Shown: piece after piece, positions 433 through 30,651 of the stretch
How positions within the stretch are numbered: the stretch's first letter is position 1
Layout: each line of letters opens with the position of its first letter
From: a virus
Strand: one strand, 5' to 3'
Virus record (IMG/VR): IMGVR_UViG_3300048837_002296
Coordinates: 1 to 30,651 of that record
DNA length: 30,651 nt
Translations under genes and position numbers: made by a program
The notes under the pieces: model-generated
What the model saw: only the letters and a program-made list of their open reading frames with translations
Database searches by the model: none
What the model was told of the DNA's origin: nothing

Positions 433-1854
433 CTGAACACGCTCAACGTCGAGTACCGCGAGGTCGAGACGCTGATTCCCTACGCCCGCAATCCGCGCAC
501 GCACAGCGACGAGCAGGTCGCGCGCATCGCCGCCAGCATCGCCGAGTTCGGCTGGACCAACCCGATCCTGGTCGATGGCGAGCACGGTGTGATCGCCGGT
601 CACGGCCGGCTGCTGGCCGCACGCAAGCTGGGGCTCGCCGAGGTGCCGGTGATCGAGCTTGCGCACCTGACGCCTGCGCAGAAGCGCGCCTACGTGATCG
701 CCGACAACCGGCTCGCGCTCGATGCCGGCTGGGACCAAGCGATGTTGGCGCTGGAGTTCGCCGAACTGGCCGACGCCGGCTTCGACCTGGACCTGACCGG
801 CTTCTCGGCCTCCGAGATCGAAGGCCTGCTCGACGCCATCGAGAAGACGGAACCGTCCGCCGAAGAGGACACGAGCGCTTTGGTCCGCGACCCGGACGAG
901 GACGACGTCACACCGCCCACGGTGGCGGTCACACGCCCCCGCGATCTGTGGCTGATCGGTGAACACCGACTGCTCTGCGCCGACAGCAGCGACGCGGCCG
1001 CCGTCGCGCGCCTCCTCGAGGGCGAGCGGGCGCACCTGCTCTTCACCAGCCCGCCGTATGCCAATCAGCGCGACTACACCACCGGCGGCATCGCGGACTG
1101 GGACGCGTTGATGCAGGGCGTGTTCGGCGCCGCCCGCAGCGCGCTGCACGAGGACGCGCAAATCCTGGTCAACCTTGGCCTGGTCCATCGCGACGGCGAG
1201 TGGCAGCCGTACTGGGACGGCTGGATCGCATGGATGCGCACTCAAGGCTGGCGCCGCTTCGGCTGGTACGTCTGGGATCAGTCGGTGACCGTGCCCGGCG
1301 ACTGGGCCGGGCGCCTCGCGCCGCGCCACGAGTTCGTGTTCCACTTCAACCGCCAGGCGCGCAAGCCGAACAAGATCGTGCCCTGCAAGTGGGCCGGGCA
1401 CGAGACGCACCTGCGCGCCGACGGATCGTCCACCGCGATGCGCGGCAAGGACGGCAAGGTCGGCGCCTGGAACCATGCCGGACAGCCCACGCAGGAGTTC
1501 CGCATCCCAGACTCGGTCGTCGAGGTGACGCGCCAGCGCGGCCGCATCGGTGAAGGCATCGATCATCCGGCGGTGTTCCCGCTGGGCCTGCCGAAGTTCT
1601 TCATCGAGGCCTACACCGACGCGGGCGAGATCGTCTTCGAGCCGTTCGCGGGCTCGGGCACCACGCTGCTGGCCGGCCAACTCACCGGCCGCCCGGTACG
1701 CGCCATCGAACTCGCCCCCGAGTACGTGGACGTCGCGCTGCGCCGCTGGCTGCAGCACCACCCGGGCACGGCGCCGGTGCTGGAGGGCAGCGGCCGGACC
1801 TTCGCCGAAGTCGCCGCCGAGCGGCTGGGCGAGACGGCGGAGGTCACTGCATGA
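433..1854 (+). CDS. ParB-like/N4-N6 DNA methyltransferase fusion 1
   Basis: This is a site-specific DNA methyltransferase with an N-terminal ParB/Srx-like domain, a combination common in phages and plasmids, where it may protect phage DNA from host restriction. Numbered from the start used here, the ParB-like part spans about residues 5-105 (DNRLAL and the GHGRLLAARKLGL segment). Motif IV TSPPY is at about 205-209 and the SAM-binding motif I FEPFAGSGTT at about 402-411. Motif IV before motif I is the beta-class order, and SPPY is typical of N4-cytosine enzymes, though this does not prove the target base. The start is unclear: no ATG lies near, the nearest upstream in-frame GTG (358) is inside the palindromic element, and homology with the next gene begins around 427-433. 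CTG 433, eight bases after GAGG (421-424), is my best guess. The stop overlaps the next start (ATGA). Confidence 0.88.
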   Translation: MNTLNVEYREVETLIPYARNPRTHSDEQVARIAASIAEFGWTNPILVDGEHGVIAGHGRLLAARKLGLAEVPVIELAHLTPAQKRAYVIADNRLALDAGWDQAMLALEFAELADAGFDLDLTGFSASEIEGLLDAIEKTEPSAEEDTSALVRDPDEDDVTPPTVAVTRPRDLWLIGEHRLLCADSSDAAAVARLLEGERAHLLFTSPPYANQRDYTTGGIADWDALMQGVFGAARSALHEDAQILVNLGLVHRDGEWQPYWDGWIAWMRTQGWRRFGWYVWDQSVTVPGDWAGRLAPRHEFVFHFNRQARKPNKIVPCKWAGHETHLRADGSSTAMRGKDGKVGAWNHAGQPTQEFRIPDSVVEVTRQRGRIGEGIDHPAVFPLGLPKFFIEAYTDAGEIVFEPFAGSGTTLLAGQLTGRPVRAIELAPEYVDVALRRWLQHHPGTAPVLEGSGRTFAEVAAERLGETAEVTA

Positions 1855-3113
1855 GCTGGCTGGCCGATCGCATCGAGCTCTGGCCGATCGACAAGCTGCT
1901 GCCCTACGTGCGCAACGCCCGCCAGCACTCGGACGAGCAGATCGCCCAGATCGCGGCCTCCATCGCGGAGTTCGGCTTCGTCAATCCCATTCTCACCGGC
2001 GCCGACGGTGTGCTGGTCGCGGGCCATGGGCGGCTTGCCGCCGCGCGCAAGCTGGGCCTGCCCACAGTGCCGGTGGTCGTGCTCGATCACCTGACGCCGA
2101 CCCAGCGCCGCGCCCTGGTGCTCGCGGACAACCGGCTCGCGGAACTCGCGACCTGGGACGATGCCCTGCTGCGCATCGAACTGGAGGCGCTGCAGGACGA
2201 TGGCTTCGATCTCGATCTCACCGGATTCGACGCCGATGCACTGGCAGAACTGCTGGCCGATGAGGAACCACAGATCGAGGGCCGGACGGAGGACGACGCC
2301 GCGCCCGACGTGCCCGAGGAACCCGTCTCCCGGCCGGGCGACGTCTGGCGGCTCGGGCCGCACCGCCTGGTCTGCGGCGACGCGACCACCGCCGAGGCCT
2401 ACGCGCGCCTGTTTCCGGACGGCGAGCGGGCGGACATGGTGTTCACCGATCCGCCCTACAACGTGAACTACGCCAACAGCGCGAAGGACAAGCTGCGCGG
2501 CAAACACCGCCCCATCCTCAACGATGCGCTGGGCGAAGGCTTCTACGATTTCCTCTTTGATGCGCTGGCGCTGATCATGGCGCACACCCGAGGCGCGATC
2601 TACGTCGCCATGTCCTCCAGCGAACTGGACACGCTGCAAGCGGCCTTCCGCGCCGCCGGCGGCCACTGGTCGACCTTCATCATCTGGGCCAAGAACACCT
2701 TCACGCTCGGGCGCGCCGACTACCAGCGCCAGTACGAGCCGATCCTCTACGGCTGGCCCGAAGGCGCGCAGCGCCACTGGTGCGGCGACCGCGATCAGGG
2801 CGACGTCTGGCAGATCAAGAAGCCAGCGAAGAACGATCTGCACCCGACCATGAAGCCAGTGGAACTGGTCGAACGCGCGATCCGCAACTCCAGCCGCCCG
2901 GGCGATGTGGTGCTGGACCCCTTCGGGGGTTCGGGCACGACGCTGATCGCCGCTGAGAAGTCCGGCCGCATCGCGCGGCTGATCGAGCTCGATCCCAAGT
3001 ACGTGGATGTGATCGTACGCCGCTGGCAGGATTTCACCGGCCAGCAGGCTACCCGCGAGGCCGATGGCGTGGTGTTCGATCAGGCGGCCGCGTCCTGCGC
3101 GACGATGCGATAG
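1851..3113 (+). CDS. ParB-like/N6-adenine-type DNA methyltransferase fusion 2
   Basis: This is a second methyltransferase (420 aa) with the same architecture as its upstream neighbour. The ParB/Srx-like domain covers about residues 8-105 (ADNRLAE at 92-98). The beta-class catalytic core has motif IV DPPYN at 200-204, HPTMKP at 331-336 and motif I LDPFGGSGTT at 355-364. DPPY is the usual signature of N6-adenine methyltransferases, whereas the neighbour has SPPY, so the pair may modify different bases. The N-terminal domains are clearly paralogous (PYxRNxRxHSDEQ, ASIAEFG, NPIL in both), which suggests a tandem duplication followed by divergence of the catalytic half. The start ATG overlaps the previous stop. 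The 3' end overlaps the convergent DUF3489-like gene by 34 bases. Confidence 0.92.
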   Translation: MSWLADRIELWPIDKLLPYVRNARQHSDEQIAQIAASIAEFGFVNPILTGADGVLVAGHGRLAAARKLGLPTVPVVVLDHLTPTQRRALVLADNRLAELATWDDALLRIELEALQDDGFDLDLTGFDADALAELLADEEPQIEGRTEDDAAPDVPEEPVSRPGDVWRLGPHRLVCGDATTAEAYARLFPDGERADMVFTDPPYNVNYANSAKDKLRGKHRPILNDALGEGFYDFLFDALALIMAHTRGAIYVAMSSSELDTLQAAFRAAGGHWSTFIIWAKNTFTLGRADYQRQYEPILYGWPEGAQRHWCGDRDQGDVWQIKKPAKNDLHPTMKPVELVERAIRNSSRPGDVVLDPFGGSGTTLIAAEKSGRIARLIELDPKYVDVIVRRWQDFTGQQATREADGVVFDQAAASCATMR

Positions 3114-4445: not shown

Positions 4446-4976
4446 ATGGGCATCTCGATTCGCGCCTACGCCCGCCACCGTGGGGTATCGGACACCGCCG
4501 TGCACAAGGCCATCCGCACCGGACGCATCACGCCCGAGGCGGACGGCACCATCGACCCAGACCGGGCCGACCGCGACTGGACCCGGAACTCCGAGCCCCC
4601 GAAGGCGGGAACGGGCTCCCGGACCGTGAAGGTGCGGGTGGCGGAGGATCCGGCCCCCAACCTCGCCACCGGCCTGCCCGCAGGCGGCACCACGCTCGTG
4701 CAGGCGCGCACGGTCAACGAGGTGGTCAAGGCGCAGACCAACAAGGTGCGGCTGGCCCGCCTCAAGGGCGAACTGGTCGATCGCCACCAGGCCATCGCGC
4801 ATGTGTTCAAGCTCGCCCGTACGGAGCGCGACGCCTGGCTCAACTGGCCGGCGCGGATCTCGGCGCAGATGGCGGCCCGGCTCGGCGTGGAGGCCCACAC
4901 CCTGCACGTGGCCCTGGATGCCGCCGTGCGCGAGCACCTCGCCGAGCTCGGGGAACTCAAGGTTCGGGTCGATTGA
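4446..4976 (+). CDS. Terminase small subunit
   Basis: A 176-aa DNA-binding subunit of the packaging motor, which would recognise the phage packaging site. Residues 4-28 (SIRAYARHRGVSDTAVHKAIRTGRI) form a typical Nu1/'elements of external origin'-like helix-turn-helix. The centre is a charged linker and the C-terminal half (about 90-176) is helical, suited to oligomerisation and contact with the large subunit. AGAGGG lies just before the ATG. The position directly upstream of the large terminase supports the call. The stop TGA (4974-4976) shares its last base with the ATG of a 24-codon mini-ORF created by a palindromic insert. Confidence 0.88.
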   Translation: MGISIRAYARHRGVSDTAVHKAIRTGRITPEADGTIDPDRADRDWTRNSEPPKAGTGSRTVKVRVAEDPAPNLATGLPAGGTTLVQARTVNEVVKAQTNKVRLARLKGELVDRHQAIAHVFKLARTERDAWLNWPARISAQMAARLGVEAHTLHVALDAAVREHLAELGELKVRVD

Positions 4977-5050
4977 TGAAACACATCCCTGTGTTTCACC
5001 CTGCCGGGCGCGCTGGCGCGCGTCCAAATTCGTTCCCGACGAATTTGTGA
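4976..5050 (+). repeat. Palindromic element, family 1, copy B, with mini-ORF
   Basis: H1 is TGAAACAC (4977-4984), loop ATCCCT, GTGTTTCA (4991-4998). H2 is GCGCGC-tg-GCGCGC (5008-5021). GTCC follows, then H3: CAAATTCGT (5025-5033), loop TCCCG, ACGAATTTG (5039-5047). H1 loop and H3 frame match copy A at 255-360 while the stems differ by paired changes. The insert lies between two TGATG sequences (4974-4978 and 5048-5052). An ATG at 4976 opens a 24-codon reading frame whose TGA overlaps the terminase ATG, so translational coupling could still pass through it. The peptide itself (starts MKHIPVFHPAGRAG) looks like a by-product of the hairpins. Confidence 0.78.
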
Positions 5051-7023
5051 TGGACGAGTTCGCCTATGAGGGCTGGGACGTCATCGAGCGCGCTTGGCGC
5101 GAGGGCCTCACGCCGGACCCGCTGCTCACCGTCTCCGAATGGGCCGACCGTCACCGGGTGCTGTCGAGCAAGGCCTCGAGCGAGCCGGGGCGCTGGCGCA
5201 CCAGCCGCACGCCGTATCTGAAGGCGATCATGGACTGCCTGTCGCCGACCTCGCCCATCGAGCGCGTGGTGTTCATGAAGGGCGCCCAGGTGGGCGCGAC
5301 CGAGACCGGCTCGAACTGGATCGGCTACGTGATCCACCACGCCCCCGGGCCGATGATGGCGGTGTGGCCCACCGTGGAGATGGCCAAGCGCAACTCCAAG
5401 CAGCGCATCGACCCGCTGATCGAGGAGTCGCCGGTGCTCTGCGAACTCATCGCTCCGGCGCGTTCGCGCGACTCGGGCAACACCATCCTCGCCAAGGAGT
5501 TTCGTGGCGGCGTGCTGGTGATGACCGGCGCGAACAGCGCGGTGGGCCTGCGCTCGATGCCGGTGCGCTATCTCTTTCTCGACGAAGTGGACGCCTACCC
5601 GCTCGACGTCGAGGGGGAGGGCGATGCGATCTCGCTGGCCGAGGCGCGCACGCGCACCTTTGCGCGGCGCAAGATCTTCATCGTCTCGACGCCGACGATC
5701 GCGGGCGCCTCGGCCATCGAGCGCGAGTACGAGGCCTCTGACCAGCGGCGCTACTTCGTGCCCTGCCCGCATTGCTCGCACCGGCAGTGGCTGCGTTTCG
5801 AGCAACTGCGTTGGGAGAAGGGACGGCCCGAGACGGCGGCGTATGTGTGCGAATCGTGCGAGACGGCGATCGCCGAGCACCACAAGACCTGGATGCTGGA
5901 GCACGGCGAGTGGCGCGCGACGGCGGAAGGCTCGGGCAAGACGGCGGGGTTTCATCTGTCGTCGCTGTACAGCCCGCTGGGCTGGCGCGCCTGGCGCGAG
6001 ATCGCCGCCGCGTGGGAGGCCGCCGTCAGTAAAGAGTCGGGATCGGCCGCTGCCATCAAGACTTTCAAGAACACCGAGCTCGGCGAGACCTGGGTCGAGG
6101 AGGGCGAAGCGCCCGACTGGCAACGCCTGCTGGAGCGCCGCGAGGACTATGCCATCGGCACCATTCCCGCCGGCGGGCTCTTGCTCACCGCCGGCGCCGA
6201 CGTGCAGAAGGACCGCATCGAGGTCTCGGTCTGGGCCTTCGGGCGTGGCAAGGAGGCCTGGCTCATCGAGCACCGGGTGCTGATGGGCGACACCGCACGG
6301 GATGCGGTGTGGAAGGCGCTGGCCGGGATGCTCGCCGAGACCTGGACCCATGCCTCGGGCGCGGCCATGCCGCTGGCCCGCTTGGCGATCGACACCGGCT
6401 TTGCCACGCAGGAGGCCTACGCCTTCGTGCGCGCCTGCCGCGACGCGCGGGTGATGGCCGTCAAGGGCGTGCGGACCGGTTCGATGGGGGGCGCGGCCCT
6501 GATCGGCACACCGACGGCGGTCGATGTCTCGCAGGCGGGCAAGAAGCTGCGCCGGGGCATCAAGGTGTATGCGGTCGCGGTGGGGCTTGCCAAGCTGGAG
6601 TTCTACAACCACCTGCGCCAGAGCGCGGAGGTGGCCGACGACGGCGTGACGGTGACCTACCCGGCCGGTTTCGTCCACCTGCCCAAGATCGACGCCGAGT
6701 TCCTCCAGCAACTGTGCGCCGAGCAGCTCGTCACCCGGCGTGATCGCCACGGCTTTGCGGTGCGCGAGTGGCAGAAGATGCGCGAGCGCAACGAGGCGCT
6801 GGACTGCTACGTGTATGCCCGTGCTGCTGCTGCGGCCGCAGGGCTCGACCGCTTCGAGGAACGCCACTGGCGCGAACTGGAGCGGCAACTGGGGCTGGCC
6901 AGTCCGCCAGCCCTTGAAACACCTACTGAATCGATCACCGAGGCCACCCATCGAGGTGGCCTGGGTGTTTCTGGCAACCGCAACACCGGCCGGCGCGTGA
7001 TCAAGAGCCGCTGGCTGTCCTGA
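5050..7023 (+). CDS. Terminase large subunit, GpA family
   Basis: A 657-aa ATPase/nuclease that drives DNA into the prohead and cuts it. The N-terminal ATPase has the Walker A-like GAQVGATET at 78-86 and Walker B LFLDEVD at 175-181. A zinc knuckle follows (CPHC 239-242, CESC 267-270). The nuclease domain begins around LTAGADVQKDRIEV (380-392, D384 a probable metal ligand) with LAIDTGFAT downstream. The C-terminus ends RRVIKSRWLS. The start is ATG 5050 (GTG 5047 is possible). No Shine-Dalgarno is visible because the palindromic insert abuts the start, so expression probably relies on coupling from the TGATG. Near the C-terminus (6916-6971) a two-layer hairpin is built into the coding sequence. 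Confidence 0.96.
   Translation: MDEFAYEGWDVIERAWREGLTPDPLLTVSEWADRHRVLSSKASSEPGRWRTSRTPYLKAIMDCLSPTSPIERVVFMKGAQVGATETGSNWIGYVIHHAPGPMMAVWPTVEMAKRNSKQRIDPLIEESPVLCELIAPARSRDSGNTILAKEFRGGVLVMTGANSAVGLRSMPVRYLFLDEVDAYPLDVEGEGDAISLAEARTRTFARRKIFIVSTPTIAGASAIEREYEASDQRRYFVPCPHCSHRQWLRFEQLRWEKGRPETAAYVCESCETAIAEHHKTWMLEHGEWRATAEGSGKTAGFHLSSLYSPLGWRAWREIAAAWEAAVSKESGSAAAIKTFKNTELGETWVEEGEAPDWQRLLERREDYAIGTIPAGGLLLTAGADVQKDRIEVSVWAFGRGKEAWLIEHRVLMGDTARDAVWKALAGMLAETWTHASGAAMPLARLAIDTGFATQEAYAFVRACRDARVMAVKGVRTGSMGGAALIGTPTAVDVSQAGKKLRRGIKVYAVAVGLAKLEFYNHLRQSAEVADDGVTVTYPAGFVHLPKIDAEFLQQLCAEQLVTRRDRHGFAVREWQKMRERNEALDCYVYARAAAAAAGLDRFEERHWRELERQLGLASPPALETPTESITEATHRGGLGVSGNRNTGRRVIKSRWLS
6916..6971 (+). 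repeat. Two-layer hairpin inside the end of the large terminase gene
   Basis: The outer stem is GAAACACC (6916-6923) with GGTGTTTC (6964-6971). The inner stem is AGGCCACC (6941-6948) with GGTGGCCT (6955-6962), loop CATCGA. It is read in frame as LETPTESITEATHRGGLGVS. The inner part resembles a phage intrinsic terminator, and the outer arms match the H1 stem of element B. It could be an in-frame palindromic insertion or a hairpin acting between the terminase and downstream genes. Confidence 0.6.
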
Positions 7024-15520: not shown

Positions 15521-18500
15521 TGGCAACCGAGCGAGCCCAGATCCTCATCACCGCCGTTGATGAGACGCGACGGGCCTTCCAGTCCGTACAGGGAAATCTC
15601 GCCCGCCTGCGCGGCGAAGCCGCCCAGGTCGGCCAGGTGCTCTCCCGCATCGGCGGCGCGATCGGCCTTGGGCTGGGGGTGCGCGAACTGGTCGAGGTCG
15701 CCGACCAGTACAAGAACCTGCAGGCGCGCCTCAAGCTCGCGGTCACCTCGCAAGAGGAGTTCAACCGCGCCGACGCGGCCCTCTTCGAGATCGCCCAGAA
15801 AAACCGCGCGCCCCTGGCAGAGACCATCACCCTCTATGCGCGGCTCGCACCCTCGGTGCAGGCGTTGGGGCGTTCGCAGGCGGACGTGCTGGCGGCTACT
15901 GATGCCATCGGGCAGGCCGTGTCGCTCTCCGGCGCATCCAGCGACGCGGCGGCCGGTGCCCTGCTGCAGCTGGGGCAGGCCTTCGCCTCGGGCCAGCTGC
16001 GCGGTGAGGAGTTCAATTCCGTCATCGAGCAGACGCCGCGCCTGGCGCAGGCCATCGCCGACGGCATGGGCGTACCGCTCGGCGCGCTGCGGGCCCTGGC
16101 TCAGGAAGGCAAGATCACCTCCCAGGCCGTGCTCGACGCCCTGCTCAAGGAGCGGACGCGCCTGGCCGAGGAGTACGCGAGCCTCCCCGATACGGTGTCG
16201 GGCGCGCTCACCCGCTTGAAAAGCGCCTTCCAGCGCGCCTTCGGCGAACGCGACGCGAGCTCGGGTGTGACGGCGGGACTGGCGCAGGCGATCCAACTGG
16301 TCGCCCGGCATCTCGAACTGCTGATCGACTTGGCCGGTGTCGTACTGGTCGCCGCCCTCGGCCGGATGGCGGGCGCCTTCGCATCCGGCGTGGCCGCCAC
16401 CCGGGCGGAAGCGGCCGCGCGCCTGGCCCACCTGCGCACGCTGCAAGCCGAGGCGCTCGCCCGGGTGCGTCTCGCCGATGCCGCCTTGGCCCAGGCGCGT
16501 GCACAAGGGCTCGTCACGAGCGCGCTGGTCGCGGAGGCGGCCAAGGCCCGGCTGCAGGCCACTGCCGCCTCCGGTGCGGTGGCCCAGGCGATCGCCTCTA
16601 CCACCGTGTTCGGGCGTGCGGTCGGGCTGTTGCGCGGCGCACTGGCCTTGCTGGGCGGCCCGATCGGCGTGCTGGTCACCGGCGTCACCCTGCTGGGCGG
16701 TGCGCTGTATTCCTCGCGCGATGCGCTGGTGGAGTTCGGCGGGCGTACCGCCTCCATCCGCCAGATCGTCGCGGCGACCTGGGACCTGGTCGTCGAGAAG
16801 GTCGGCGACGTCGTCGGTGCCTTGGGTCGGCTGGTCGGCACCAACGATCTGTCCTGGGCCCGCGTGCGCGCGGCGATGGTCGGCGCGCTGAACGCCATCG
16901 GCACGGCCGTCCGCGCGATGGTCAACGTCGTCATCGGCGCGTTCAACGCCATCGGCAGCGTCGTGGGCATCGCGGCCGCCTTCCTGGTCGAGCGCTTTCG
17001 TAACGCCTTCTCCGACATCGGAGAGCTGGCGAAGGCCTTGGGCCAGGACGTGGCAGCGGCCTTCAGCGGCGACTTTTCGATGCAGGCGCTGCGCGCAGCA
17101 CTCGGCCGCCAGCTCGGCGAGGTGCGGGATTTCGGGAAGGAGCTGGCTGGAGCCGTGCGCGACGCCGTCTCGCGCGACTACGTCGGGGAGGCCGCGCAAG
17201 CCATCGCTCGGCGCATCCGCCCCGAATCAACCCAGGCGGGCGTCTTCGGCCGTCCGCAGCCGCAGGCCTTGTCCGCCCCCGACAAGGCAGGCGAAGCAGC
17301 GAAGCTCGCCCTCGTGCAGGCCCAGGCCGAGGCCGAATTCAAGCTCCTCAAGGACGCGTTGGACCGTCAGGCGCGGGCGCTGGACGCATCCCTCGAAGAC
17401 CGGCTGATCTCGCTCAAGGACTACTACGCGGCCAAGACCCGGATCGAGCAGCAGGAGATCGATGCGGAGATCCGGCGCGTGCAGGTCTCGCTCGCGGAGC
17501 AGCAGCGCCTGCAAAAGACCGGCAAGGACGAACCGGCACGCCTCAAGGCGAAAGCCGAGGTCGCCAAGCTCGAAGCGGAGCTCACCGTCCTCAACAACAA
17601 GCGCGCCGACATCGAGCAGGCCAACGCCAGAGCGGCCGCGCAGGCCGAGCGCGAACTGGCCGATGCCCTGGCCGCCGCGCGCGAGGAGCTGGCCCAACTC
17701 ACCGGCACGGCCACCGACGCCGACCGGCGAGCGGCCATCGAGCGCAGCTATCGGGATCTGCGCGTGCGCCTGGCGGCCGAGAGTGACCCCGATGGCGTCT
17801 CACTCATTGACCGGCTGATCGACGTGAAGGCCGCCCAGGCCAACCTCGCCGTGCTCGAAGCCCAGTGGCGGCAGGTCACCGAGCGGCTGCGAAACGCCCA
17901 GGAAGCCATCCAGATCCAGACCCAGGCGGGCTTGCTCACCGAAGCGCAGGCCCGCCAGCAGATCGTGGTCTTGCAACAGCAGTCGGCGGCCGAGATGCAG
18001 CGGCTCCTGCCCGCGATGCAGCAGGCGGCTGAGGCCATCGGGCCGGAGGCGGTGATCCGCGTGCAGGCCTTCCGCAACGAGCTGGAGCGCACGCGCATCG
18101 TGACCGACGAGCTCGCGCCGCTGTGGAACCGCATCGGCGAAGGCTTCGGGCAGGCCGTGCAGGGCATCGTCACTGGGGCGCAAAGCCTGCGCGAAGGGCT
18201 CTCGAACATCTTCCGCAGCATCTCGGAGGCCTTCCTGCAGCACCTGGTCATCCAGCCCTTCCAGCAGTGGGTGGCGATGCAGGCGCGGATGCTGGCGATG
18301 AAGCTGGGCTTTGCCCAGCAAGAAGCGGCCATCGAGCAGGCCGCGGCCGCCCAGTCGGTGGCCACCAAGCAGGCCGAGACGGCGGCCAAGGTCAGCGCCA
18401 ATGCCGCCGAGGCCGGGTCAGGCGCGGCCGCCTCCCAGGCCGCGATTCCCGTCGTGGGGCCGGGGCTGGCGCTCGCGGCGATGGCGGCGATGGTGGCCGC

Positions 18501-22570: not shown

Positions 22571-22776
22571 GCATCGACGTCCTCGTCACCATCGCCCACG
22601 TGCGCGCCGCGGGGCTCTGCGTGCACGGCACGCGCACCTGGTTCGCGCGCCAGGGCCTGGACTTCCGGGCCTTCCTCGCCCGGGGGCTTCCCGCCTCGAG
22701 CTTGCTCGCCACCGGGGATGCGATGGCCGCACGCGTGGTCGAGGTCGCGCAGGCCTGCCATGAGGAGCCGCGCTGA
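22567..22776 (+). CDS. Small tail-assembly-region protein, unknown function
   Basis: A 69-aa protein MSIDVLVTIAHVRAAGLCVHGTRTWFARQGLDFRAFLARGLPASSLLATGDAMAARVVEVAQACHEEPR. The motif CVHGTRTWFARQGLDFRAFLARGLPAS is common in small phage proteins located immediately before the tail tip gene; no function is assigned to them. It is coupled by ATGA upstream and TGATG downstream, so it is clearly part of the tail operon. Confidence 0.75.
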   Translation: MSIDVLVTIAHVRAAGLCVHGTRTWFARQGLDFRAFLARGLPASSLLATGDAMAARVVEVAQACHEEPR

Positions 22777-25055
22777 TGGGCGGTAGCCGCAAGAAGCAGA
22801 CCGTCGGCTACCGCTACCGGATCGGGATGCACCTGGTGCTGTGCCAGGGGCCGGTGGATGCAGTGCAGGAGATCCAGATCGGCGACCGCAGCGCCTGGGG
22901 CGATGCGAGCCGCGCGCCGCTGGCGAGCGGCCATGGGCTGGGGCGCCTGCGCATCGATCGGCCCACGCTCTTCGGCGGCGACGAACGCGAAGGCGGCGTG
23001 GTGGGTGACCTCGACGTGCTCGCAGGCAGTGCCGCGCAAGACCGCAACGACTACCTGATGAGCCACCTGGGCGCAGCGATCCCGGCGTTCCGCGGGGTGT
23101 TGTCGATCGTGGCACGCAAGATCCTGTTCGCCGCGAACAACCCCTACCTCAAGCCCTGGGCGGTGCGCTTGCGCCGCTTCACGGCGGGCTGGGCGGGCGA
23201 GCCCTGGATGCCCTGGAACGCCGAGGTGCGGACCTGGGATGCCGGCACCGGGGCCTATGTGACCGTCGGCATGAACCCGGCCCACATCCTGGTGCAGTGC
23301 CTCACCGACCCGCACTGGGGCATGGGCTATCCGCCATCCACCCTCGGCGCAAGCTTCTGGAACGCGGCCTGGGCGCTCGAAAGCGAAGGCTTCGGCCTGA
23401 ACCTGGTCTGGACGCGCCAGCAACCGATCGAGGCCTTCATCGCCCAGGTGCTCGACCACGTCGGCGGCATCCTCTACCTCGACCCGGAGCAAGGCACGTT
23501 CGAATTGAAGCTCCTGCGCGACGATTACTGGATCGACGGGCTGCCGGTGCTCGGCCCCGACGAGATCGTGCGCATGGAGCGCTTCGAGCGCGCGCAGTGG
23601 GCGGAACTGCCCAACGAGATCACCGTGGTCTACACCGACTGGGCGACGGCCAAGGAGGCCACCGTCACGGTGGAGAACCTCGCCGCGATCCAACTGCAAG
23701 GCGGGGTGATCAACCAGCGGCGCGACTATCCGGGCGTGAACCACGGGCCGCTGGCCGCGCGGCTGGCGCTGCGCGACCTGCGCGCACTCGGCTCGCCCCT
23801 GGCGCGCATGACCTTGACCATCGTCCCCGGCGCCCTGGAGCGTCCGCCCCTGCCGGGAGACGTGTTCCTGCTGCATTGGCCACGCCTGGGCATCGAGCGC
23901 ATGGTGGTGCGCGTGACCGGCATCGACACCGGCACGCTGGGCGCCTCCGAATGGCGCATCGAGGCCGTGGAGGACGTCTTCGGCATGGGCCAGACCGTGC
24001 TCACGCCCACCCCGCCGCGCCTCGAGGAGCCGCCGCTGGAGGCGCTGCCGCCGACCCTGGTTCTGGCGGTCGAGGTGCCGTACTGGGAACTCGCGCGGCG
24101 CCTGAGCCGGGCCGACCTCGCCACCCTCACCGACACCGACACCTACGTGGGGGCCTTGGCCTGCGCGGGTGGGGCGGGGCAGTTGAACTGGCAGCTCGCC
24201 ACCGGGCCCACGAGCGCCGATCTCGAGGCGGTGGCCCCGGAAGACTACGCACCCCTGCTCACGCTCGGCCAAGCGCTGCCGGCCACCGAAGCCGATGCCG
24301 TGGCCGTACCGGTGACGGCGCTGGCCCAGCCCGAGCGCCTGGCGGTCGGCGACTACGCCTATCTCGTCGATGCGCTGGGTGCGATCCGCGAGGCCGTGGC
24401 GATCCTCGCCTTCGATGCCGCCGCGGGCACGGTGGATCTCGCCCGCGGAGTGCTCGACACCACGCCGCAGGCCCACGCGGCCGGCACGCGGCTGGTGGGT
24501 GTGGGCGAATGGCTGGCCGCCGAGACCACCGAGCGCGCGCCGGGCGAGTCGGTCTTCGTCGCCGCCGTCCCGCGCACGGCCAGCGCCGAGGGCGATGCGG
24601 TGCTCGCCGCCAACGGCGCACCGATCGTGCTCGCGGGCCGCCAGGCGCGGCCGTACCCGCCGGGGCGCATCCGACTCAACGGCCAGACGGAGCCCGCCGT
24701 GGTCGCCGGCGACCTCACCCTCACCTGGGCACACCGCGACCGCACCCAGCAGACCGCCTACCTCGTGCGCCAGGACGAGGGCGACATCGGCCCCGAACCG
24801 GGCACCACCTACACCGTGCGCATCCAAGACGGCCACGGCACCCTCGTGCGCACCGAGGCCGGCATCACCGGCAACGCCTGGACCTGGGACGTGGCCAGTG
24901 CCGCCCTGGACGCCGGCATCTCGGGAGATACCGTCACCGTCGAGATCGAGGCCGAGCGCGACGGGATCAAAAGCTGGCAGGCGCAAGTGCGCACCGTCGA
25001 ACGCGCCGGCTACGGCTTGCGCTGGGGGCAGCACTGGGGCGGGGTGTCGCCATGA
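22776..25055 (+). CDS. Tail tip/hub protein, gpJ-like
   Basis: A 759-aa protein. The N-terminal hub region begins KKQTVGYRYRIGMHLVLCQGPVDAVQEIQIGDRSAWG. LFGGDEREGGVVGDLDVLAG, AAIPAFRGVLSIVARKI, NPAHILVQCLTDPHWGMGYP and IEAFIAQVLDHVGGILYLDPEQGTFELKLLRDDY follow; these are typical of the phage tail protein family that forms the adsorption hub. The C-terminal ~230 residues (DGAL... to WAHRDRTQQTAYLVRQDEGDIG...) contain fibronectin-like beta strands. It would sit at the tail tip and connect to receptor-binding proteins. Its stop lies within the stem of palindromic element D. Confidence 0.9.
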   Translation: MGGSRKKQTVGYRYRIGMHLVLCQGPVDAVQEIQIGDRSAWGDASRAPLASGHGLGRLRIDRPTLFGGDEREGGVVGDLDVLAGSAAQDRNDYLMSHLGAAIPAFRGVLSIVARKILFAANNPYLKPWAVRLRRFTAGWAGEPWMPWNAEVRTWDAGTGAYVTVGMNPAHILVQCLTDPHWGMGYPPSTLGASFWNAAWALESEGFGLNLVWTRQQPIEAFIAQVLDHVGGILYLDPEQGTFELKLLRDDYWIDGLPVLGPDEIVRMERFERAQWAELPNEITVVYTDWATAKEATVTVENLAAIQLQGGVINQRRDYPGVNHGPLAARLALRDLRALGSPLARMTLTIVPGALERPPLPGDVFLLHWPRLGIERMVVRVTGIDTGTLGASEWRIEAVEDVFGMGQTVLTPTPPRLEEPPLEALPPTLVLAVEVPYWELARRLSRADLATLTDTDTYVGALACAGGAGQLNWQLATGPTSADLEAVAPEDYAPLLTLGQALPATEADAVAVPVTALAQPERLAVGDYAYLVDALGAIREAVAILAFDAAAGTVDLARGVLDTTPQAHAAGTRLVGVGEWLAAETTERAPGESVFVAAVPRTASAEGDAVLAANGAPIVLAGRQARPYPPGRIRLNGQTEPAVVAGDLTLTWAHRDRTQQTAYLVRQDEGDIGPEPGTTYTVRIQDGHGTLVRTEAGITGNAWTWDVASAALDAGISGDTVTVEIEAERDGIKSWQAQVRTVERAGYGLRWGQHWGGVSP

Positions 25056-26143: not shown

Positions 26144-26446
26144 ATGACTGAACCGACCCAAGCCCCCGCCCTCGTCGAGAACATGCTGCTCCTGCGCCGC
26201 GAGGACTTCGACGACCTGCTCGACCGCGCCGCCGAGCGCGGAGCCGAGCGGGTGCTCGCGCACCTCGGCCTCGAGAATGGCCACGCAGCAAGGGACATCC
26301 GCGAACTGCGCGATCTGCTCGAAGCCTGGCGCGACGCGCGCCGCACGGCATGGCAGACCACCATCAAGGTGGCCACGACCGCCATCCTCGCCGCACTGCT
26401 GGTCGGAGCCGCCATCAAGCTGAAGCTGATGGGAGGTGGCCAATGA
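26144..26446 (+). CDS. Small single-TM lysis-region protein, DUF6127-like
   Basis: A 100-aa protein. Residues ~1-70 are charged and helical (LLLRREDFDDLLDRAAERGAERVLAHLGLEN...DIRELRDLLEAWRDARRTAWQ). A single membrane segment (about 74-95, IKVATTAILAALLVGAAIKLKL) lies near the C-terminus, so the soluble part would face the cytoplasm or form a coiled coil. Such proteins precede GTA-type holins in several prophages. A holin-like or holin-modulating role is inferred. GGAGA is at 7 nt; the stop overlaps the next ATG. Confidence 0.7.
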   Translation: MTEPTQAPALVENMLLLRREDFDDLLDRAAERGAERVLAHLGLENGHAARDIRELRDLLEAWRDARRTAWQTTIKVATTAILAALLVGAAIKLKLMGGGQ

Positions 26447-26919
26447 TCGAGACACTGCTCGGTGGCCTCCTGGGCGGAGCCTTCCGCTTGGCGCCCGAGG
26501 TTCTCAAGTGGCTGGACCGCAAGGGCGAGCGCAGCCATGAACTTGCCATGCAGGACAAGGCGCTGGAGTTCGAGAAGCTGCGCGGCGCCCAGCGCATGGC
26601 CGAGATCGGCGCGAGTGCAGATGCCGCGTGGAACACCGGGGCCATCGAGGCCTTGCGCGAAGCGGTCGCGGCGCAGGGGCGGCCCTCGGGCGTGAAGTGG
26701 GCCGATGCGCTGTCCAGCAGCGTCCGTCCGGTGATCACCTACTGGTTCATGGCGCTGTACTGCGCGGCCAAGACTGCCGCCTTCGTGGGTGCCATCGAGG
26801 CCGGGGCGGACTGGATCCCCGCCATCCAGGCGGCCTGGACCGAGGCCGACCAGGCCCTGTGGGCCGGGGTGCTGAACTTCTGGTTCCTCGGCCGCGTGTT
26901 CGACCGGGTGCGGCCGTGA
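26443..26919 (+). CDS. GTA-type 3TM holin
   Basis: A 158-aa protein. The N-terminal LGGLLGGAFRLAPEVLKWLDRKGERSHELAMQDKALEFEKLRGAQRM, the middle WADALSSSVRPVITYWFMALYCAAKTAAFVGAI and the final DQALWAGVLNFWFLGRVFDR are hallmarks of the 'holin of 3TMs for gene-transfer release' family. Membrane segments are expected around 5-20, 103-122 and 140-155. It would permeabilise the inner membrane and let the endolysin reach the cell wall. GGAGG lies just upstream. The stop overlaps the GTG of the endolysin gene. Confidence 0.85.
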   Translation: MIETLLGGLLGGAFRLAPEVLKWLDRKGERSHELAMQDKALEFEKLRGAQRMAEIGASADAAWNTGAIEALREAVAAQGRPSGVKWADALSSSVRPVITYWFMALYCAAKTAAFVGAIEAGADWIPAIQAAWTEADQALWAGVLNFWFLGRVFDRVRP

Positions 26920-27371
26920 TTGCGGTACCCCAAGCGGCCATCGAGCTGGCCAAACGCTTTGAGGGCTTCCACCGCGTGCCCAAGCACGATCCCAACCGCG
27001 CCTATCCGTACATCTGTCCGGCCGGCTATCCGACGATCGGCTATGGTCACCTCTGCGATCCGAAGCACCCGCCGATCACCGAAGCAGAGGCCGAGGCCTA
27101 CCTCGCCCAGGATCTGAAGGTGGCGCTGGCCGCCACGCTGCGCTACTGCCCTGTGCTGGCGACCGAGCCGGAAGGGCGGCTCGCGGCCATCGTGGACTTC
27201 ACCTTCAACCTCGGCGCCGGGCGGCTGCAGACCTCGACGCTGCGGCGGCGGGTCAATCAGCGGGACTGGCCCGCAGTTGCAATGGAACTACGTCGATGGG
27301 TCTACGGCGGCGGTAAGATGCTCCCAGGGCTCGTAGCACGTCGTGATCTCGAGGCTCGATTGGTTCAGTGA
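26916..27371 (+). CDS. GH24 endolysin (T4-type lysozyme family)
   Basis: A 151-aa muramidase cleaving the glycan strands of peptidoglycan. The likely triad is Glu16 (RFEGFH), Cys34 (ICPAGYPT) and Thr40 (PTIGYGH). The usual E-x8-C/D-x5-T spacing is stretched by a 9-residue insert (HDPNRAYPY region). IVDFTFNLGAGRLQTSTLRRRVNQRDW and the closing MLPGLVARRDLEARL are typical of the family. There is no cleavable signal or clear SAR segment, so export would depend on the holin. The GTG start overlaps the holin stop (GTGA). No Rz/Rz1 spanin gene is visible afterwards. Confidence 0.9.
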   Translation: MIAVPQAAIELAKRFEGFHRVPKHDPNRAYPYICPAGYPTIGYGHLCDPKHPPITEAEAEAYLAQDLKVALAATLRYCPVLATEPEGRLAAIVDFTFNLGAGRLQTSTLRRRVNQRDWPAVAMELRRWVYGGGKMLPGLVARRDLEARLVQ

Positions 27372-27420
27372 GTGTTGACCTCCGAACTCCTTGAGGCAGA
27401 TGCGCTTGCAAACGACGAAG

Positions 27421-29595
27421 TCAGCGAAGCCAAGCGGGAAGCTGAACAGGGGCCGAGGCTGCGAAGCGTTCCTGGATGGTGAAGAAGAGCTTCCCGGCCC
27501 TTTCCAGCACGGGATCGGGAAGCACGACGCCCCGCTGCGACCACGACGAAACCAGTTGAAGAGCGACCGTGGTCTTCCAGCCATCGGGCAAGTCGATGCC
27601 CTTCTCTTTAGCGGAAGCCTTGATTCGATCGGGAAGACTGCGGGACCTACCGTCGTCTTCTGGCAGGCGAAGCGGCTCTGACAAGAGAGGATTGAGGACT
27701 GGTAGGATGACGTCCTCTCCAAGGATGTCTTCAATCTCGACGGTAGCTCCTGGCTGTTGTAAGGCCTCGTCGAGCATGACGATGTTGCTGTCTTTCCCGA
27801 GATACAACTCCTTGAGAAGTGCATCGCGCCTGACTCGACCAGCCTCGTCGGAATCGAGAAGGATCAGGGGCCGAACGTCCTGCCCGAGGAACAAGGCCGC
27901 TATGTGACCGACGAGCTTAGTCCCGCCGCACGGCGTGATGTAGATGTCCTCCGAAAGCACGGGAAGACCCTTCGCACGGCACTGCTGGTTAAGTGCGTGA
28001 AGGTAGTAGTAATCGCTCATGCCCTCGACGAGCACATTCTTCTTGTGCTGGAAGAGGCCGCGCAACATGGCGTAGCCAGCGGCGGCTTGCAGCGGAAAGA
28101 TGGTCTCGCGGTCTCTGGGCCATGTATCGGCACTGATCCGCGAGTGGCCCGTGTTGTCCTCCGTGACAGGGCGGACGCGATAGATGTGCTCGCCGTCCAC
28201 GAGGAACGGCGAGTGGGTCGTATATACGAGCTGGTTCTTCTCGGCCAGGCGCTCGAAGAAGACCAGAAGCTCCTGCTGAGCCGTTGGATGTAGGTTCATC
28301 CCCGGCTCGTCGAGAAGAAGGATTGCGTCCTTGTGCCCCTCTTCGGACTCTACGAGGAACACCAGGTAGAAGGAGAAGAACCACTGGAAGCCCTTGCTTC
28401 GGGCTTCCAGCTCGATTTCCACATCCGGCCTTCGGTCGTCAGCGACCCAGATTCGGAAATAGTCGCCGTCAGCGTGATAGCGTATCTTGTGCCGGCGCTG
28501 CGACCACCAGTCAGAGAACCGGGTGCTTATGTCGTTCGACGCAGAGTTGAGGCGGATCGCGCGCTCCTCTTTTCGCCGTTGATCCTTGGCAACGGTCTCG
28601 GCGTTTGGCTGTTGGCCGTTCTGACGTTGCGCCCTAGCTTCTTCCGCACCTAGGTCAGCTATGTCCTTCGCGTCGAGCGCGACATGCTTGAACATCGCAT
28701 TGATCGTGCGTACGCGAGGATTGTTTCGATCACGTTGAAGGTCTTCGAGGAACCGCGGCAGATAAATCGCACTGTCAAGGACACCGTAGTTCTCGAAGTA
28801 GATCAGAACGGGAAGCGCGTCTTCGATCAAGCTGTCGAGCTTGGGCAGGACTGGTCCTTCCTTGGCTGCTTCGAGAATCGGATCAACTGCCTCGTGGAGC
28901 GCTTCGATAAGATCGGCGGTCTGTGGGCTGCTCTTGGTCTCTGCCTCAGCCTTTAGCTTGGCGAGCGTCTTGGCCCCGGCGTCACCGCGAAGGTCTGCGG
29001 AACCCTTGAGCTTGTCCTGCCACTGAGTCGCCCACTGTGCGAGCGCGTTCCTTGTCTCGGCAGTTGCCTCTTCCTGCTCGGGCGTTGGTGCTCGGAGGCG
29101 ACGCGCGCCGCTGGCAAAAGCCTTCAGTCCAGCAAGTATGGGCTCTGGCGAAAGGGGTTGCTCGGCGATATCAGGTTCGTATTCGAACGTGATGGAGCCG
29201 TCGTAGTAGCGCGTCGCAATCACTTCGGTTGGCGGGATCTGATCGGGTGGCAGCAGATCCGCCATATCTGCTTTCAGTGCATCGTCAACCGCAAAGGCGA
29301 CGGAGCAGACAGGCCAGTCACTACCCTTCGAGCCACCGCCGACGAAATCCCGCATGTAGCGGTCGCGCGGAAACTCGCGCATTGGGTCGTATGGCTCCGG
29401 GGACGCCGGATTGAACTTGTGCAAGGCCTTTAGGAGCGCGGTCTTTCCAGATTCGTTACGCCCAACAAATGCCGTCACTTGGTCAAGCAAGATCCAACCA
29501 CTGTCATCGATGTTTCTGAAGTTCTGGATTCTGAACCGCTTAGGGAAGGTGTTCAAAACGCCCGCGGCGATGGCCACTGAGGCGAGATATTCCAC
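27421..29595 (-). CDS. OLD-family ATPase with TOPRIM nuclease domain
   Basis: A 724-aa protein. The ABC-type ATPase has Walker A GRNESGKT (45-52), signature SKGFQWFFSF (about 400-409), Walker B AILLLDEP (424-431) and the H-loop THSPF (460-464). The TOPRIM nuclease follows with VEGMSD (523-528, E524) and LLDSDEAG (579-586). Helicase partners (GajB-like) are not present in the window. OLD nucleases are known in phage defence and phage interference. The first in-frame start matching the fold is GTG 29595, with weak ribosome site; the frame continues upstream into the IS flank. GC and codon use are visibly lower than in the phage genes. It converges on the endolysin gene with a 49-bp gap. Confidence 0.9.
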   Translation of the reverse strand: MEYLASVAIAAGVLNTFPKRFRIQNFRNIDDSGWILLDQVTAFVGRNESGKTALLKALHKFNPASPEPYDPMREFPRDRYMRDFVGGGSKGSDWPVCSVAFAVDDALKADMADLLPPDQIPPTEVIATRYYDGSITFEYEPDIAEQPLSPEPILAGLKAFASGARRLRAPTPEQEEATAETRNALAQWATQWQDKLKGSADLRGDAGAKTLAKLKAEAETKSSPQTADLIEALHEAVDPILEAAKEGPVLPKLDSLIEDALPVLIYFENYGVLDSAIYLPRFLEDLQRDRNNPRVRTINAMFKHVALDAKDIADLGAEEARAQRQNGQQPNAETVAKDQRRKEERAIRLNSASNDISTRFSDWWSQRRHKIRYHADGDYFRIWVADDRRPDVEIELEARSKGFQWFFSFYLVFLVESEEGHKDAILLLDEPGMNLHPTAQQELLVFFERLAEKNQLVYTTHSPFLVDGEHIYRVRPVTEDNTGHSRISADTWPRDRETIFPLQAAAGYAMLRGLFQHKKNVLVEGMSDYYYLHALNQQCRAKGLPVLSEDIYITPCGGTKLVGHIAALFLGQDVRPLILLDSDEAGRVRRDALLKELYLGKDSNIVMLDEALQQPGATVEIEDILGEDVILPVLNPLLSEPLRLPEDDGRSRSLPDRIKASAKEKGIDLPDGWKTTVALQLVSSWSQRGVVLPDPVLERAGKLFFTIQERFAASAPVQLPAWLR

Positions 29596-29679
29596 ATGGT
29601 GACTAATCTGGCGTTTTTGCGGTCTCAAACAAGGGCATTTCGCCCTTGTGGACGGCCCTTTGGCCGGTTGTGGACGCAC
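29596..29679. other. Gap between OLD gene and transposase, probable IS end
   Basis: It contains a perfect inverted repeat ACAAGGGC (29629-29636), loop ATTTC, GCCCTTGT (29642-29649), and GGCC-cttt-GGCC further on. The terminal inverted repeat of the IS should be here, but its partner lies outside the window, so the exact boundary cannot be set. An A/T-richer stretch (about 29609-29617 on the plus strand) may carry a promoter for the OLD gene; no convincing -35/-10 pair was found. Confidence 0.4.
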
Positions 29680-30651
29680 TCATCCCTGCAGCCCCTGCAA
29701 AAGCCTGCGCCGAGCCATCCACAGATTGCTCAGCGCAAACAGCGTCATCAGGTTGGCCGTGTTCTTGGCCAGCCCCCGGTACTTGACCTTGACGTAGCCG
29801 AACTGCCGCTTGATGACCCTGAAGGGGTGTTCCACCTTGGCCCGGATGCTGGCCTTGGTCTGCTCCAGCTTCTCCAGGATGGCTCCCATGGGCGTGCCCT
29901 TGTCCATCGCACGGCGCTTGCCCGGCATCATCGCAATGTGCCAGTTCACGTCGGGGTGCTGGGCCTGAATCTCTTTGCGCTTCTCAACGCCCCGGTAGCC
30001 CGCGTCGGCAAAGACATCGGTTTCTTCACCATGGACCAGCTTGCTGGCCTGCGTCACATCATTGACGTTGGCTGCCGTGCCCACCACGGTGTGAACCAGC
30101 CCAGAGTCGGCATCCACGCCGATGTGGGCTTTCATGCCGAAGTGCCACTGATTGCCCTTCTTGGTCTGGTGCATCTCGGGGTCACGGGTGCCGGTGCTGT
30201 TCTTGGTGGAACTGGGTGCGGCAATCAAGGTGGCGTCCACCACCGTGCCTTGGCGCAGCATCAGGCCCTTGTCGGTGAGCGTGGCGTTGACGGTGGCCAG
30301 GATTCGTTCGGCCAGATGGTGTTCTTCCAGCAGGTGCCGGAATCGAAGGATGCTGACCCGGTCCGGAATGCGTTCGACGCTGGACAAGCCGACAAACTCC
30401 CGGTACAGCGCGGTCTCGAAGAGGGCCTCTTCCATGGCCAGGTCGGACAGGCCGAACCATTGCTGGACGAAGTGGATGCGCAGCATGGTCTCCAGCTCAA
30501 ACGGGGGCCTGCCGGTCTTGGCACGCGGGGCGTGCGGTGCAATCAGCGCCAGCAGCTCGGACCACGGCACCACCAGGTTCATCTCGTCCAGAAACACAGC
30601 CTTGCGCGTGCGCCGCTTGCTCAGGTTCAGTCCAAGGTCTTGTTGCTTCAT
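29680..30651 (-). CDS. IS5-family transposase
   Basis: A 323-aa DDE transposase, complete from ATG at the window edge to the stop. The N-terminal region SKRRTRKAVFLDEMNLVVPWSELLALIAPHAP...GRPPFELETMLRIHFVQQWFGLSD is typical of the IS5 group. Catalytic residues are expected in GTVVDATLIAAP (first D), VFADAGYRG (second D) and RAKVEHPFRVIKRQFG (E). No frameshift or internal stop is seen, so it may be active. It lies right behind the OLD gene, in the same orientation. Confidence 0.93.
   Translation of the reverse strand: MKQQDLGLNLSKRRTRKAVFLDEMNLVVPWSELLALIAPHAPRAKTGRPPFELETMLRIHFVQQWFGLSDLAMEEALFETALYREFVGLSSVERIPDRVSILRFRHLLEEHHLAERILATVNATLTDKGLMLRQGTVVDATLIAAPSSTKNSTGTRDPEMHQTKKGNQWHFGMKAHIGVDADSGLVHTVVGTAANVNDVTQASKLVHGEETDVFADAGYRGVEKRKEIQAQHPDVNWHIAMMPGKRRAMDKGTPMGAILEKLEQTKASIRAKVEHPFRVIKRQFGYVKVKYRGLAKNTANLMTLFALSNLWMARRRLLQGLQG
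29680..30651 (-). mobile_element. IS5-group insertion sequence, partial (one end outside window)
   Basis: The transposase defines the element; its inverted repeats are not both in the window. The left boundary (plus-strand coordinates) lies somewhere in 29596-29679. The insertion next to the OLD gene and near the prophage end suggests either an accessory-gene hot spot or the edge of the prophage. Confidence 0.7.

Follow-up and report, generated by a model that had tools for sequence, protein, structure and literature searches.

An OLD-type nuclease gene beside a phage endolysin is probably the last, accessory gene of an Hma defence operon

The DNA analysed here (the window) is one entire IMG/VR record of 30651 bp. 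It carries a phage head-tail-lysis block, mainly on the plus strand, with PHROG matches to terminase, major tail, tape measure, tail and endolysin proteins; against named phages, its tail and terminase proteins stay below 60% identity in every match. Beyond the late genes, and opposite to them in direction, lies an OLD-type gene flanked by the endolysin on one side and an IS5-family transposase on the other (Table 1), just as the first-pass annotation had described. That annotation was also right in calling the gene a real OLD ATPase-TOPRIM gene of lower GC content: the ORF ending at 27421 (minus strand) exceeds the Pfam cut-offs for AAA_15, AAA_21 and OLD-like_TOPRIM, and its GC content is 58.8%, against 70.9% for positions 4800-27371. 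As relatives are encoded at 74 loci (84,980 species genomes searched), it is no chance ORF.

Table 1. Features of the window, from the start of the late block to the IS5-family element.
Feature	Position	Strand	Basis or remark
Terminase large subunit	4801..7023	+	phrog_15; marks the block as phage
Tail protein	22776..25055	+	Phage-tail_3, phrog_1101; query for related phages
DUF6127 protein, lysis end	26144..26446	+	profile match; synteny marker
Endolysin, final gene of the late block	26916..27371	+	Phage_lysozyme, phrog_7 endolysin
Gap from endolysin stop to OLD stop, 49 bp	27372..27420	.	convergent junction, likewise in G001, G002 and G005
OLD-type gene (ABC ATPase + TOPRIM nuclease), minus its first codons	27421..29543	-	Pfam domains; homology to relatives
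Presumed IS5 target tetranucleotide at the IS/OLD junction, single visible copy	29540..29543	.	sequence reading
IS-derived 5' extension of the OLD ORF (gene start of the first-pass annotation)	29544..29595	-	missing from relatives
IS5-family element, incomplete	29544..30651	-	transposase NF033581; end motif and distance as in the IS of NZ_CP065407.1
IS5-family transposase, 323 aa	29680..30651	-	NCBIfam NF033581

Two peculiarities of the phage block itself deserve mention. Two head-to-tail genes on the plus strand (358-1854 and 1851-3113), each matching phrog_498 (DNA methyltransferase) and ParB-like nuclease families, are in part about 70% alike in DNA and represent a tandem duplication that related phages have too. 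The middle of the tape measure gene (about 15620-17320) does not align with two of the related phage copies (G001 and G005), while both of its flanks align at about 90-95%; on sequence grounds, it appears to be a variable part of the tail ruler.

The claim that the OLD gene is complete did not hold. Its relatives include those of the metagenome-assembled genome (MAG) SZAS TMP-107 (Proteobacteria; genome G001, locus L002), Dyella sedimenti (G002, L003) and Ramlibacter (G003, L004). The blastn identity to these three and to L076 halts at window position 29543, and all four copies have an ATG of their own just past the break point, which is missing from the window. From 29544 onwards the sequence is an IS5-type end: it starts with GGAAGGT and lies 136 bp from the transposase stop, and in a homologous IS, on plasmid NZ_CP065407.1, an inverted-repeat end that likewise opens with GGAAGGT lies at an equal distance. 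The start at 29595, as well as that of a longer ORF reaching 29679, falls within the IS, and the first residues originally assigned to the gene are IS sequence. The last four bases before the junction (29540-29543) form a tetranucleotide which we take to fit the IS5 target pattern. As all of the remaining 2123 bases (27421-29543) are identical to the OLD copies of L002 and L076 (2123/2123), which are intact, the insertion looks recent. The record stops at the start codon of the transposase, so the IS is incomplete and its far side is out of sight. No near-identical copies of it were found in plasmids, where 19 of 19 records fell into the 60-80% band. Apparently, then, an IS5-family element in the first codons of OLD has displaced the native start from the reading frame and parted the gene from its operon, and the window copy, with its native start gone, may have lost expression.

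The encoded protein has the organization of the OLD family, with an ABC ATPase followed by TOPRIM in one polypeptide and with conserved ATPase and TOPRIM acidic residues. In an alignment of 27 sequences (A1), the Walker positions are invariant, and E509, D513, D566 and D568 are kept in at least 90%. The predicted structure (pLDDT 86, pTM 0.67) has its best Foldseek match in the OLD protein of T. scotoductus (TsOLD, 6p74; E 2.5e-12), which is also the top PDB match by sequence and shares the domain order, but is about 200 residues shorter and of low identity (14%, Foldseek). The VIA-align superposition with 6p74 extends over residues 2-699 of the model (Z 17.0, 332 aligned, rmsd 13.8); so large an rmsd points to domains that are arranged differently. 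The ATPase heads of SMC, Rad50 and PtuA score equal to or above OLD in this comparison because the ATPase domain dominates it.

It was initially proposed that this gene has no visible partner and may act alone like P2 Old. Comparison with the relatives did not support this view: a partner had been sought downstream, while in the relatives the partners lie upstream, which in the window is the far side of the IS. In G001, G002 and G003, the copies in which the upstream side is present, OLD is the final gene behind HmaA, HmaB and HmaC, with gaps of 64, 65 and 63 bp, respectively, between HmaC and OLD (64 bp in L002). L002 has, all in one direction, a 206-aa NYN protein (HEC-09), a 350-aa protein (HEC-08), HmaB (DUF1156), HmaC (DUF499) and OLD; further upstream in G001 there are HmaA (1176 aa, helicase domains and NOV_C by Pfam), a 68-aa ORF and a WYL-domain protein. 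The order in Dyella sedimenti is HmaA, a HEC-09-like gene, HmaB, HmaC and OLD, and that in Ramlibacter is an HmaA-like 1177-aa gene, HmaB, PDC-M61A, PDC-M61B, HmaC (DUF499) and OLD; some of these gene calls were made by simple scripts rather than by a gene finder. PADLOC recognised HmaB (1814 bits), HmaC (1536) and the C-terminal part of HmaA (630), namely HmaB and HmaC in L002, the HmaA part in L003 and HmaB in L004. The operon is collinear among the three genomes by blastn at 74-97% and converges on the phage late genes. A helicase (HmaA), a methylase (HmaB) and an ATPase (HmaC) found together correspond to the Hma, or Type-1 BREX-related, system; the name Hma appears in the accessible part of PMC8565338. 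We therefore consider it probable that OLD is the 3'-terminal accessory gene of an Hma operon, carried as prophage cargo just beyond the endolysin and facing the late genes. The window's own prophage would then have the Hma operon beyond the IS, outside what the window shows, and the operon would be co-transcribed with OLD.

The genes embedded in the operon vary by copy: HEC-09 and HEC-08 in the MAG (L002:479-2161), a HEC-09-like gene in Dyella (L003:1534-2151) and PDC-M61A/B in Ramlibacter (L004:1890-5068). Candidate genes embedded in Hma operons are treated in PMC12988326, as far as its accessible part goes.

Several other identities were considered for the gene. A lone P2-like gene was rejected for this element, as OLD follows Hma genes in the relatives; a class 1 OLD would be a single gene with no defence neighbour, and in G001, G002 and G003 the neighbour is HmaC. 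Gabija (class 2) was rejected as well, since L002 and L003 have HmaC and the endolysin next to OLD and no UvrD-type neighbour. For comparison with class 3 OLD and retrons, no reverse transcriptase was found among the scanned genes of the L002 operon.

Elsewhere, the OLD gene keeps different company. HmaC stands beside it in only 3 of 77 loci, all in this phage lineage and some of the 77 with little upstream DNA, and OLD is therefore not an obligate part, or subunit, of Hma; another locus (L016) gave weak HmaA- and HmaB-like matches (30-33%). Restriction or methylation genes lie directly upstream of OLD in 4 of the 18 loci with a scanned upstream ORF (XhoI with Eco57I methylase, HsdS twice, and a C5 methylase). 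No restriction or methylation family was recognised upstream in the other 14, one of which (L022) matched a PADLOC reverse-transcriptase/PolA model; the upstream gene of L010 resembles the HsdS of L009. With 4 of 18 loci, plus L010 by similarity, a universal companion of restriction systems was rejected too. As judged from these neighbourhoods, the OLD gene resembles a mobile module that associates now with one system, now with another. A C-terminal OLD remnant (residues 653-711, 46%) was also noticed between HmaA and HmaB of another Hma operon (L075:8001-8177).

The first-pass reading of OLD as phage-borne accessory defence cargo is supported by its location in relatives. The window, G001, G002, G003 and a further viral record, G005, have phage genes in common and in the same order, with weak or unaligned stretches in part of the tape measure (G001, G005), in much of 18-25 kb (Dyella) and in more of G003. 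Four collinear phage copies, those of the window, G001, G002 and G005, have OLD directly next to the endolysin; in G003 about 3.1 kb separate it from an endolysin of 31% identity. The record of G005 starts at the OLD start codon. A host gene outside the prophage border would have spoken against phage cargo, and in Dyella OLD was found inside: operon and phage form one 65.8-kb insertion at a tRNA-Ala(CGC) gene (right flank). G001 and Dyella share the operon side as far as Dyella C16:195544, and in other Dyella genomes the host flank that ends near C16:195483 resumes at C16:261315-261316. Nineteen other genomes were searched for the empty site and 7 non-self loci were compared. Both host flanks are present in 4 of the 7, spaced by 91 bp in L094, about 0.2 kb in L099 and about 1.1 kb in L096 and L097, while L095, L098 and L100 lack the right flank within the stretch examined. 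Because the empty site in L094 joins the host flanks, the borders of the insertion are supported. Two repeats compete as the attachment core: one of 10 bp, which matches the tRNA end (195547 and 261313), and a longer one of 13 bp, about 40-50 bp outside it (195495 and 261271). A large serine recombinase, recognised by reading, lies at C16 250209-251606, and the sole tyrosine-integrase match on the contig is at 443648. Large serine recombinases rarely use tRNA genes, and here the recombinase and the tRNA are separated by 9.7 kb of other genes; the Dyella island may thus be composite.

Related prophages were also compared for other cargo at the same locus. The tail query (best 80 of 91 matches) and an endolysin query (best 80 of 327) gave 152 related viral loci (L103-L254), with the endolysin located in 113 and unique in 87; 20 of the 87 unique endolysins are no more than 200 bp from the end of their record. 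In 48 loci the sequence extends 1.5 kb or more past the endolysin; 31 of these have genes with defence-type labels there, that site alone being scanned, and 17 have nothing labelled. The labels are BREX genes (PglZ, BrxH, BrxL; 8 loci), a type II-type methyltransferase (7), HsdR (6), HmaC (2), PLD helicase (2), type III REase (1), OLD (1), a weak type II REase (1) and generic Dpd-like or helicase matches (3). They derive from 16 scanned proteins with PADLOC matches, two blastp matches and blastp clusters; 20 proteins, mostly picked by size, were scanned directly (8/10 and 8/10 matched), including one from L211, which lies outside the 48. The count of 31 includes broad labels (methyltransferase, the weak type II REase and the helicase matches of L204, L208 and L238) and some near-duplicate loci. 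Of the labelled genes, 33 of 39 converge on the late genes. Among the 67 loci with 200 bp or more downstream, just one, L174 (the G005 record), had a full-length OLD of this kind. With a fixed phage position and variable defence genes, the endolysin-side site of this lineage reads, from its gene content, as a prophage defence hotspot. OLD together with BREX-related systems, as well as prophage defence hotspots, are already published; this lineage hotspot, the large methylation-based systems that it frequently carries and the terminal-gene swap described below were not found in the searched titles and abstracts of open-licence papers.

One of these loci, the viral contig L120, comes from a close relative of the phage and has a nearly identical HmaC (98%, blastp). 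Its alignment with L002 runs to L002:7966 (95.8%) and resumes at 10208 (93.3%); between the matching HmaC and endolysin flanks, L120 has a single 276-aa gene in place of OLD. Neither PADLOC (at 1e-10) nor a PDB sequence search (at 0.1) gave a match to the product. A 71% relative of its C-terminal 195 residues is found beside the endolysin of a more distant phage (L257, endolysin 44% identical to that of the window); within L257:1-3364 it follows, after 10 bp, a 921-aa SNF2-type helicase which shares 30% identity with the BrxH-type helicase of L192. A low-confidence model of the 195-aa part (from two sequences, pLDDT 69) is all-helical, and this part has an invariant RNYAAH motif, which fits the Rx4-6H pattern given in the accessible part of PMC3710099. 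Foldseek returned no match to the model at E 0.001 or better (a HEPN entry ranks 8th, E 0.58), so only the motif suggests HEPN, and a HEPN RNase is one possible identity of the L120 protein. L002 and L120, with shared HmaC and endolysin flanks and different last genes, form a natural swap, and the replacement agrees with an accessory-effector slot behind HmaC. We put forward only tentatively, as an idea that we are more inclined to doubt than to defend, that the lysis end is a dedicated bay for whole methylation-based systems (Hma, BREX, type I/III restriction), moved between Proteobacteria classes, and that the endolysin-adjacent gene is a swappable suicide-effector slot, taken by OLD-TOPRIM or, in the sister phage, by the all-helical protein with the HEPN-like motif.

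How might such an operon work? HmaB would methylate the lysogen's own DNA, and HmaA and HmaC would restrict unmodified incoming DNA. OLD, an ABC ATPase with a TOPRIM nuclease, would serve as a second line of defence, triggered by a continuing infection or by inhibition of the core, and would then cut nucleic acid and end either the infection or the cell. Each of these biochemical steps, trigger included, would follow from family knowledge and from PMC12839542, which, in its accessible part, proposes OLD-linked nucleases as backup suicidal effectors on the basis of gene neighbourhoods. Within the operon-in-prophage reading, we regard this backup role of OLD as an evenly balanced proposition. 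The L002/L120 swap makes the backup-effector idea for BREX-related systems testable.

The TOPRIM-linked OLD-ABC effectors of BREX/Hma described there are similar to the present case, as an OLD ATPase-TOPRIM protein is encoded beside a DUF499-DUF1156-helicase system and is proposed to be a backup effector. Here, by contrast, the gene is prophage-borne and beside the endolysin, with the terminal gene swapped between sister phages; the main text of PMC12839542 does not contain the word 'prophage'. P2 Old, a class 1 protein, is likewise an OLD family gene on a prophage, but it is a single gene, whereas here the relatives have a defence operon of large genes upstream. The accessible part of PMC10568477 defines the OLD classes and reports that the P2 old locus also hosts other defence genes. 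Gabija (GajA-GajB) likewise combines an ATPase-TOPRIM protein and a helicase in one defence operon, but that helicase is UvrD-type, while HmaA is SNF2-type and three or more genes away. Like the P2/P4 hotspots (PMC9122126, accessible part), the site described here belongs to a temperate phage and combines a fixed position with variable defence genes; it differs in phage lineage and in that its cargo often includes genes of large methylation-based systems. The plausible picture of a lone P2-like Old gene is corrected, and attention is drawn to a prophage lineage with multi-gene methylation-based defence systems.

Other explanations have to be weighed against an accessory gene of Hma. P2 Old acts alone against lambda, and a stand-alone class 1 OLD could in the same way exclude rival phages by itself, its place behind Hma being mere shared cargo space. 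Most relatives do have no Hma neighbour, 14 of the 18 loci with a scanned upstream ORF gave no restriction or methylation family, and the 63-65 bp gap leaves no overlap with HmaC. Against this stand the constant order and spacing behind HmaC in three genomes, the four loci with restriction or methylation genes directly upstream (together with the HsdS-like gene of L010), and the different gene in the very same place behind HmaC in L120. We find this explanation quite unlikely, even though the OLD protein, as its scattered neighbourhoods suggest, may have autonomous activity. Another scenario, unlikely to a lesser degree, concerns the window copy: the IS5 element would have silenced OLD, polar effects or a deletion would perhaps have removed the operon, and nothing functional would be left. 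The native start is indeed lost from the frame, no upstream partner is visible and the record ends within the IS. Still, 2123 bases identical to intact copies mean that there is no decay yet, and IS5-type elements can drive neighbouring genes. Moreover, such dead cargo in one phage is compatible with the accessory-gene reading for the lineage.

The Hma-OLD block might also be a chromosomal host island bordering a prophage that itself would end just past the endolysin. On one hand, the 20 of 87 unique related endolysins close to a record end and the G005 record beginning at the OLD start codon would fit such an end, and the possibly composite Dyella island, with its serine recombinase and 9.7 kb of other genes before the tRNA, as well as the competition between the 13-bp and 10-bp repeats as border, points the same way. 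On the other hand, the same junction occurs in Dyella (Gammaproteobacteria), in the Proteobacteria MAG and, with 3.1 kb extra, in Ramlibacter (Betaproteobacteria), the DNA shared by G001 and Dyella ends past the operon at the 10-bp repeat matching the tRNA end, and the host flanks are adjacent in L094. A host island is thus very improbable, and the sequence comparisons support OLD as prophage-borne defence cargo.

Two observations were made at the edges of these islands. Between the recombinase and the tRNA-Ala, the region of G002 C16:251636-261051 (L085) is possibly a second defence module; its genes encode a DUF2924 protein, a helicase of 1537 aa that includes an MTES_1575 nuclease domain, and an IrrE-like peptidase accompanied by an HTH gene, and two more are unrecognised. 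At the far phage end in G001, C15:1-620 departs from the Dyella recombinase region and appears transposase-like by eye.
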